Source: Spirochaetaceae bacterium
GTDB taxonomy: Bacteria; Spirochaetota; Spirochaetia; DSM-27196; PWMO01
NCBI GenBank assembly: GCA_003558175.1
Contig: PWMO01000439.1
Coordinates: forward strand, 1 to 12,058
DNA length: 12,058 bases
Direction of reading: 5' to 3'
The notes beneath the pieces were generated by a model that worked only from the letters and a program-made list of their open reading frames with translations, was not told the DNA's origin and did not search any database. Positions 2,484 through 3,564 of the stretch are shown in pieces (the stretch's first letter is position 1; each line of letters opens with the position of its first letter). The translations under genes and the position numbers were made by a program.

Positions 2484-2705
2484 CTACCGCGGCAGCCGCA
2501 GGAGGGAGTCTTTGTCGGTTTCTTCGATGATCGCGTCCAGCGCGGCATCGAGTTTGTCGGACTCTTGCGTTGACTGAATGAGCTGCCGTTCCGCCTCCAG
2601 AATGCCGTACTTGCGCTCAATCAACCGCATCAGCACCGCCTGCTTTCCTTCGAGCTTTCCTTCGGTTTTTCCTTCGGTCTTCCATTGCTCGGCAATTGTC
2701 ATCAT
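2484..2705 (-). CDS. Possible internal in-frame product of the rpn gene (RpnS-like, 73 aa)
   Basis: At codon 250 of the rpn gene there is ATG ATG (2705-2700) preceded by GGAGG (2715-2711) with a 5-base gap, a better initiation site than that of the full-length protein. The product would be 73 residues: MMTIAEQW, the TEGK/LEGK tract, and the C-terminal helical domain ending LLRLPR, without the nuclease domain. For E. coli rpn genes, short C-terminal proteins made from an internal start are reported to bind and inhibit the full-length toxic nuclease. By analogy this could be the antitoxin of an overlapping-gene pair. GGAGGAAGC also simply encodes Glu-Glu-Ala, so chance is not excluded. Confidence 0.5.
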   Translation of the reverse strand: MMTIAEQWKTEGKTEGKLEGKQAVLMRLIERKYGILEAERQLIQSTQESDKLDAALDAIIEETDKDSLLRLPR

Positions 2706-3452
2706 CGCTTCCTCCGCAGGCCGGTACTGGACCTGTCGCACCGCCTCTACCAGCCTATCTCGCGGCTCAGCCGAAACGCGGAACGCGTACTCCAGCATCG
2801 CCGTCAAGAACGCCCGCGTCTCCGAGGTCGGCGGCAACGCATCACGCACGAGCGCTACAAGATCGCCAAGTACCTTTGCGATCTCCCGATACGCTTGCAG
2901 CAGCCGCACCCCGGCAACAAATCTCGCGCCGCCGCGCACCTCGCCTGCAGACCGTCCAGCGGTCTCATAGAGCGATGCGTTGAACTGCGGCGTGTGCCGC
3001 AGCTCCTGCTCAGAGTGTAGCGCTACCAGCGCAGAGAAGTCCAGCGCGTACGGCCACACCCGCGCCGAATGGCTGAACAGGAGCGGAATCACCGGTGGCA
3101 GCAGCTGTTGCCCCGGGTTATCACGGCGGTGCTGCTTCCAGATCTCAACCATGTAGCCGAGCAACTGCAGCAGTGCCCAGCGGTCGGGCGCGGATTTATG
3201 TTCTACCAGCACATAAATGTAGACTGAGTCGCTGACACCGTTTCGCGTCAGCTCAAAGAGAATATCGGAGCACGTCGCACGCAGGTTGTCTGCGATGTAA
3301 CTCTGCTGGTGGATCTTGAGACTGCCGAAGTCCAGCCCCGATGCAATCTCGGCCGGCAGTCCTGCCCGGATAAGGTCTACTGCTGCGTCGGGGTGGGAGA
3401 ACAGGTGACGGAAGAAAGCATCGTGCGGAGGTCCGTTGGGTTTTCCGTGCAT
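2484..3452 (-). CDS. Rpn-family PD-(D/E)XK nuclease (YhgA-like 'transposase')
   Basis: A 322-residue member of the Rpn/YhgA family (PF04754), once called transposase-like and now known as recombination-promoting DNA nucleases. The N-terminus PHDAFFRHLFSHP (9-21) is the family hallmark. The PD-(D/E)XK active site is visible as D63 in CSDILFEL and E84-H85-K86 in YVLVEHKS. A helical region follows, then a Glu-Gly-Lys tract (about 258-270) made by a 12-bp DNA repeat, and a charged C-terminal helical domain. The start ATG at 3452 has GGAGG only one base upstream, too close for good initiation, and no better start exists nearby. Full-length translation may therefore be weak. The same frame contains a well-equipped internal start (2705). 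It is monocistronic; the gap to the upstream EamA gene is 112 bp. Confidence 0.87.
   Translation of the reverse strand: MHGKPNGPPHDAFFRHLFSHPDAAVDLIRAGLPAEIASGLDFGSLKIHQQSYIADNLRATCSDILFELTRNGVSDSVYIYVLVEHKSAPDRWALLQLLGYMVEIWKQHRRDNPGQQLLPPVIPLLFSHSARVWPYALDFSALVALHSEQELRHTPQFNASLYETAGRSAGEVRGGARFVAGVRLLQAYREIAKVLGDLVALVRDALPPTSETRAFLTAMLEYAFRVSAEPRDRLVEAVRQVQYRPAEEAMMTIAEQWKTEGKTEGKLEGKQAVLMRLIERKYGILEAERQLIQSTQESDKLDAALDAIIEETDKDSLLRLPR
2644..2679 (-). repeat. 12-bp tandem repeat, three units, in the rpn gene
   Basis: Plus-strand units TTTCCTTCGAGC (2644-2655), TTTCCTTCGGTT (2656-2667) and TTTCCTTCGGTC (2668-2679) differ at one to three positions at their 3' ends. On the coding strand they encode TEGK, TEGK and LEGK. 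A 12-bp unit keeps the frame, so gain or loss of copies would change only the length of this linker or coiled-coil tract. Such EG-rich tracts with variable copy number are common in Rpn-family genes. Confidence 0.8.
2711..2715 (-). promoter_or_regulatory. Internal ribosome-binding site in the rpn gene
   Basis: GGAGG on the minus strand at 2715-2711 is followed after AAGCG by ATGATG. Spacing is 5 bases to the first ATG and 8 to the second. This is the strongest Shine-Dalgarno arrangement seen in the gene and defines the start of the proposed 73-residue product. Confidence 0.5.
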
Positions 3453-3564
3453 ACCTCCAATTACGGGGGTAAATGGCGTGCTGATTGAGTTTGCATCAAA
3501 GAGTCTTGTGTTTATTTCGAAACCAGGGGAATCTTCTGCCGAAGTCGTGCAAGTCCAGCAGCTG

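Follow-up and report, generated by a model that had tools for sequence, protein, structure and literature searches.

The rpn gene and its probable second in-frame start

The window analysed here, i.e. a stretch of 12,058 nucleotides from contig PWMO01000439.1 of a Spirochaetaceae bacterium, carries on its minus strand a gene for a protein of the Rpn family of nucleases. PF04754 matches residues 9–201 of the product with an E-value of 2.4e-41 (142 bits against a cut-off of 21), the NCBIfam Rpn subfamily model TIGR01784 reaches 57.5 bits and thus exceeds its cut-off of 52.1, and the RpnA and RpnC-type models match more weakly, under their equivalog cut-offs. PADLOC contained no model matching rpn. 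The predicted structure of the full-length protein is of high confidence (mean pLDDT 89) and includes a helix at residues 244–282. The relevant features are as follows:

2484..3452, minus strand: rpn (RpnL), 322-residue Rpn / PD-(D/E)XK nuclease, predicted toxin (PF04754, TIGR01784)
3454..3458, minus strand: GGAGG preceding the ATG of full-length rpn at a spacing of 1 nt
3452-3450, minus strand: ATG of full-length rpn, read directly
3195..3266, minus strand: nuclease core, D63 and E84-H-K86, from an alignment of 14 sequences
2711..2715, minus strand: internal Shine-Dalgarno GGAGG, read directly and conserved family-wide
2705-2703, minus strand: ATG of codon 250, 5 nt from the internal GGAGG
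2700..2702, minus strand: ATG of codon 251 (MTIAEQW), 8 nt from the internal GGAGG; corresponds in position to where E. coli RpnA-S begins
2484..2705, minus strand: rpnS, predicted antitoxin with 73 residues if initiated at codon 250 and 72 if at codon 251 (2702-2700)
2646..2681, minus strand: KTEG-KTEG-KLEG, three repeats of four residues each, within the first RpnS helix
2486-2484, minus strand: rpn stop codon, read directly

A preliminary description of this DNA had identified the gene as an rpn nuclease with active-site residues D63, E84 and K86, and had placed the full-length ATG at 3452 with a GGAGG one base off and an ATG at codon 250 with a GGAGG five bases upstream. Both family models agree with this assignment, the three residues are all present in the full-length protein, and direct reading reproduces the coordinates exactly. 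In the 14-sequence alignment, D63, E84, H85 and S87 are invariant, and position 86 is either lysine or glutamine. The internal product of 73 residues that had been proposed is obtained from codon 250, but the second ATG, at codon 251, would yield one of 72. Since Met250 is kept in all four of the closest relatives (P0002–P0005) and Met251 in three of them (P0004 has lysine), codon 250 appears at least as likely a start as codon 251.

The full-length start has no Shine-Dalgarno match at a spacing of 4–10 nt, its match of 6 nt standing at a spacing of 1. When ribosome-binding energies were compared in 32 genes, the internal site was the stronger in 22 and equal in 2 (mean −9.2 kcal/mol against −4.6 kcal/mol for the full-length start). 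This comparison is not relied on, because the scoring let the spacing be too short (the full-length start of the window scored −10.2) and because, where several full-length starts were candidates, the best one was taken; our view of the full-length start as a poor one therefore derives from its spacing in the window alone. No sigma-70-like promoter was found inside rpn, where 0.3 would be expected. Internal transcription starts have been reported in E. coli rpn genes (PMC10327210), and the extra transcript known from there is therefore unsupported in the window.

Elsewhere in the window, the gene for DctP (minus strand) has a twin layout like that of rpn, with TAAGGAGG located 5 nt before a GTG and 8 nt before an ATG; DctP more likely starts at this GTG (11511) or ATG (11508) than at the first ATG (11610). 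A second toxin–antitoxin pair, about 1.4 kb from rpn, consists of a MazE-like antitoxin (PF04014) and a PemK/MazF-like toxin (PF02452) on the plus strand (436-1060), which overlap by 26 bases and whose listed start codons have no Shine-Dalgarno match. As in this type II system, rpn would combine a toxin with a protein antitoxin, but the MazEF-like pair comprises two separate genes, whereas rpn would have two starts within one.

Conservation of the internal site

Taken in isolation, the internal site of rpn is unremarkable, and it exceeds chance only once relatives are compared. The pattern GGAGG-N4-9-ATG occurs four times in the window (two of these being the rpn site with its two ATGs) against an expectation of 2.15, and 33 of 200 shuffled windows also reach four. 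With the codon use of rpn (GCG for 20 of 36 alanines, GAG for 17 of 25 glutamates), the probability of a GGAGG given Ala-Glu-Glu is 0.378. The caveat voiced earlier, i.e. that the GGAGG could be due to chance as it also encodes Glu-Glu, is thus justified for the single gene but fails across relatives, where the site is far above chance.

For comparisons across the family, a site was defined as an in-frame ATG, GTG or TTG preceded, at a spacing of 4–10 nt, by a match of at least 5 nt to TAAGGAGGTGA, a sequence not read from the 16S rRNA end of the window organism itself. Of 183 profile matches, the 116 in which the Met column is occupied were retained; 76 of these were distinct and 75 had 33 nt upstream; filtering at less than 60% junction identity left 44, and two more (L092|1139 and L074|8804) were dropped for lying too close to the start of their ORFs. 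The resulting 42 non-redundant tails include the window gene, E. coli rpnB, rpnC and rpnD (L071, L072, L073), some partial genes, and Pseudomonadota and other named genomes (L032, L034, L037, L039).

A site is present in 36 of these 42 tails. In 400 synonymous recodings that preserved the codon use of every gene, the count averaged 17.6 and never exceeded 27; among windows of equal size taken from other parts of these ORFs, only 22 of 792 carry a start with a Shine-Dalgarno match, i.e. they do so roughly thirty-fold less often. The recodings preserve residues and codon use but not the kinship between genes, and the size of the excess is therefore not to be read as a probability. Matches of at least 7 nt occur in nine of the 42 tails, which equals the recoding maximum (mean 3.9). 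The spacing between match and start is 5 nt in 18 tails, 8 nt in 10, 7 nt in seven and 10 nt in one; among the six junctions without a match of at least 5 nt, three have no match at all. A narrower first scan, which was restricted to a zone of five codons at the Met column and was later extended to 14 as junctions were misaligned (both controls being widened likewise), had found the site in 34 of 44 tails, against a mean of 14.8 and a maximum of 23 in 1000 recodings, and at only seven of 226 other in-frame ATGs.

Moreover, the same site is encoded by differing residues (A-E-E, K-E-G, Q-E-D or R-E-E) and in one subgroup even in another codon phase, with GGAGGT spanning the Glu-Val of E-V-K, as selection at the nucleotide level would give.

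This pattern extends to a mostly new set of PF04754 genes drawn from the phylum (296 genomes), with 23 of 27 carrying the site (recodings: mean 12.4, maximum 17, n = 100) and a site density of 1.16 per 100 codons in the tail zone versus 0.13 elsewhere. Besides the window gene (L155), these 27 contain L164, L166 and L171, which had already been counted in the first set, and a spurious ORF without a site that runs antisense on the plus strand of L174; the count for new genes proper is therefore 19 of 22. A smaller first run through the phylum (9 of 12 and 8 of 10; highest recoded counts 11 and 8) would not have been decisive alone. The preliminary description had proposed to examine in Rpn homologues whether the nucleotides of the internal ribosome-binding site are conserved beyond codon need; they are, and well beyond it (36/42, 34/44 and 23/27). 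Altogether, these comparisons suggest nucleotide-level selection on internal start sites across the Rpn family.

The PF12784 (PDDEXK_2) nucleases, which belong to another Pfam family but likewise join a nuclease to a C-terminal helix, also appear to be enriched in internal starts, which would be a modest extension of the finding. A match of at least 5 nt is found in 28 of 40 non-redundant genes (L116–L145, L176–L221; recodings: mean 14.9, maximum 22), with L133 being doubtful among the 28 because all its sites use GTG and lie at the zone boundary; with matches of at least 6 nt the count is 21 of 40 (recoded mean 7.5, maximum 18). Site density is 0.90 per 100 codons in the tail zone and 0.26 elsewhere, and the start lies mostly 70–119 residues before the stop, as compared with mainly 50–79 in PF04754. 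Among 296 genomes of the phylum, PF04754 occurs in 71 and PF12784 in 102. The main text of PMC10327210 names neither PF12784 nor PDDEXK.

At closer range, the only near relative with readable DNA (L031, identical to L002; SLTF01000216.1), whose contig lacks the 5' end of rpn, retains the GGAGG, the 5 nt and both ATGs. The expectation that a close homologue would keep the internal site is borne out in this respect, but not as an excess of codon conservation: between the window and L031, 5 of 11 codons are unchanged at the junction and 44 of 108 elsewhere, a weak test since it rests on 11 codons. L108 and L109, a divergent Rpn-like pair that, like L031, comes from the genus of the window organism, keep a GGGGAGG, the 5 nt and the ATG, and 13 of 14 junction codons are unchanged versus 228 of 303 elsewhere; against PF04754, L108 reaches 12.8 of the 21 bits needed and L109 has no match. 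Together with L112 and L093, these two represent a divergent subfamily that scores below or slightly over the PF04754 cut-off and keeps the internal site at a junction reading TMPYVTSWERI or similar.

The predicted small protein and its counterparts

According to its structural model (mean pLDDT 80, pTM 0.60; helices at 3–31, 36–44, 48–59 and 64–68), RpnS would be a long helix containing the three four-residue repeats, followed by short helices. A varying number of such repeats is typical of Rpn proteins (PMC10327210); among the relatives compared here, which are not strains of one species, there are three in the window protein, P0004 and P0005 and five in P0002 and P0003. The E. coli structure 7TH0, in which RpnS has a three-helix fold, was not among the Foldseek or VIA-align 2 results for the modelled structure. 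Comparison of profiles aligned the window-type tail with E. coli RpnS tails at 94.6% probability over 34 columns only, the part after the repeats matching poorly. Sequence alignment places Met251 of the window protein opposite the residue with which 7TH0 chain A begins, i.e. Met244 of E. coli RpnA.

RpnA (YhgA) of E. coli is one of the nearest points of reference. It shares with the window protein the PF04754 nuclease, the C-terminal helical domain and an in-frame internal start, with AAGGAG preceding its Met244, but whole-protein identity is 25% and its tail has 49 residues as compared with 72-73 in the window. In E. coli RpnA, changing the ribosome-binding site together with Met244 leads to loss of RpnA-S (PMC10327210). 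The statement in the preliminary description that E. coli rpn genes produce short inhibitory proteins from within the gene agrees with this publication (PMC10327210).

In E. coli RpnE, the internal start also resembles that of the window gene, and it recurs, with the same ATG and the same AAAAGGAG, in a separate copy, YpaA (RpnE-S); in contrast, the window rpn has no adjoining separate copy. Seven of the E. coli haplotypes examined have both an RpnE tail within the gene and a separate copy downstream (L074, L222–L227, i.e. MG1655, BH100, 2022N21, AVS0362, GN03590, MS1050 and DETEC-E1070), and in all seven the two carry unequal numbers of repeats. In K-12, the RpnE-S encoded within rpnE and YpaA are one repeat apart, and RpnE itself is annotated as inactive. 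The E. coli sample consisted of eight of the 20 listed matches plus K-12, with five of the 20 matching K-12 at 100% identity across the query; the separate RpnE-S copy is absent from O169:H41 and EC0026B. A similar arrangement exists at L092 (G044:C28, positions 3-1424), where two separate copies, of five and two repeats, lie behind an Rpn-like tail of seven, each beginning at the internal ATG with a GAGGAG. Tandem runs of rpn genes were also seen (L078 and L091 on G044:C130 and C521; L076 on G009:C245; L097 on G054:C32), and in L097 and L078 the repeat number differs between neighbouring rpn genes.

One extra repeat in RpnC-S is sufficient to stop neutralisation (PMC10327210), and therefore separate copies may not serve their neighbour. 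The mismatch in all seven haplotypes speaks against a simple spare copy but not for a particular target, and it may also stem from independent drift, repeat numbers being so variable. A speculative and on balance doubtful extension would be that the internal antitoxin start is old, selected and common to PF04754 and PF12784 across the phylum, and that separate RpnS copies, instead of being spares, are aimed at other Rpn variants (of phages, plasmids or rival copies), with the window gene as one unit of a length-coded recognition.

Probable toxin and antitoxin within one gene: interpretation and alternatives

Judged by sequence and by analogy, the window rpn is probably a spirochaete member of the known RpnL/RpnS kind of gene-within-gene toxin–antitoxin system. 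The overlapping toxin–antitoxin pair initially proposed thus gains support from the family, the position of the site and its family-wide selection, with the function of the small protein taken from E. coli. In such a system, rpn would produce two proteins in the same frame, RpnL (322 residues), a PD-(D/E)XK DNA nuclease that would harm the cell when free, and RpnS (72-73 residues), the same C-terminal helical domain alone, translated from the internal GGAGG-ATG. RpnS would bind RpnL via the long helix that bears the four-residue repeats, restraining the nuclease until infection or another stress upsets the balance. The strength of the internal site, together with the poor spacing of the full-length one, would tend to yield more antitoxin than toxin. 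Family membership, active-site residues, the site and the family-wide selection on it were found here; translation of RpnS in the window would follow the precedent of E. coli and C. difficile (PMC10327210). Toxicity, binding, inhibition and phage restriction are expected by extension from E. coli alone, with the anti-phage effect having been demonstrated for RpnP2 (PMC10327210).

An alternative would be that the GGAGG-ATG merely results from the residues Ala-Glu-Glu ... Met in combination with codon bias, with no initiation occurring there. In the window alone such a by-product would be unremarkable, given the probability of 0.378, the frequency of GGAGG-N4-9-ATG and the missing excess of unchanged junction codons in comparison with L031. 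We nevertheless consider it improbable, because none of 400 and none of 1000 recodings reached the observed counts at 5 nt, and because of the enrichment of tails over other windows of the same ORFs. It is also conceivable that RpnS is made but acts as a structural partner that shapes RpnL in a mixed oligomer, rather than as an antitoxin. The shared domain is an oligomerisation helix, the E. coli complex consists of two RpnA-L and two RpnA-S, and internal starts in other systems yield subunits such as Cas11d (PMC10327210). E. coli RpnS, however, lowers growth inhibition, SOS induction and DNA cleavage (PMC10327210), which makes a purely structural role quite unlikely. Finally, Rpn genes are frequently gained and lost, and the genomes searched contain many partial matches, such that rpn could be a decaying remnant and its internal site a fossil; with a full-length open frame, its nuclease residues kept and a structure modelled with high confidence, we regard this as extremely improbable.

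A search of the literature since 2023 on recombination-promoting nucleases, with most subscription journals outside its reach, found no later functional study of Rpn proteins. Beyond the two published species, E. coli and C. difficile, the present analysis adds nucleotide-level evidence for a selected antitoxin start in rpn and extends the sign of an internal start to PF12784 nucleases. If the RpnL/RpnS interpretation is true, many genes annotated as a single putative transposase would be toxin–antitoxin pairs with the antitoxin unannotated. Rpn relatives are also found on mobile elements, i.e. on 4,630 of 72,556 plasmid records and on 10 phage records, including two from Leptospira phages (KF114877.1 and KF114876.1).
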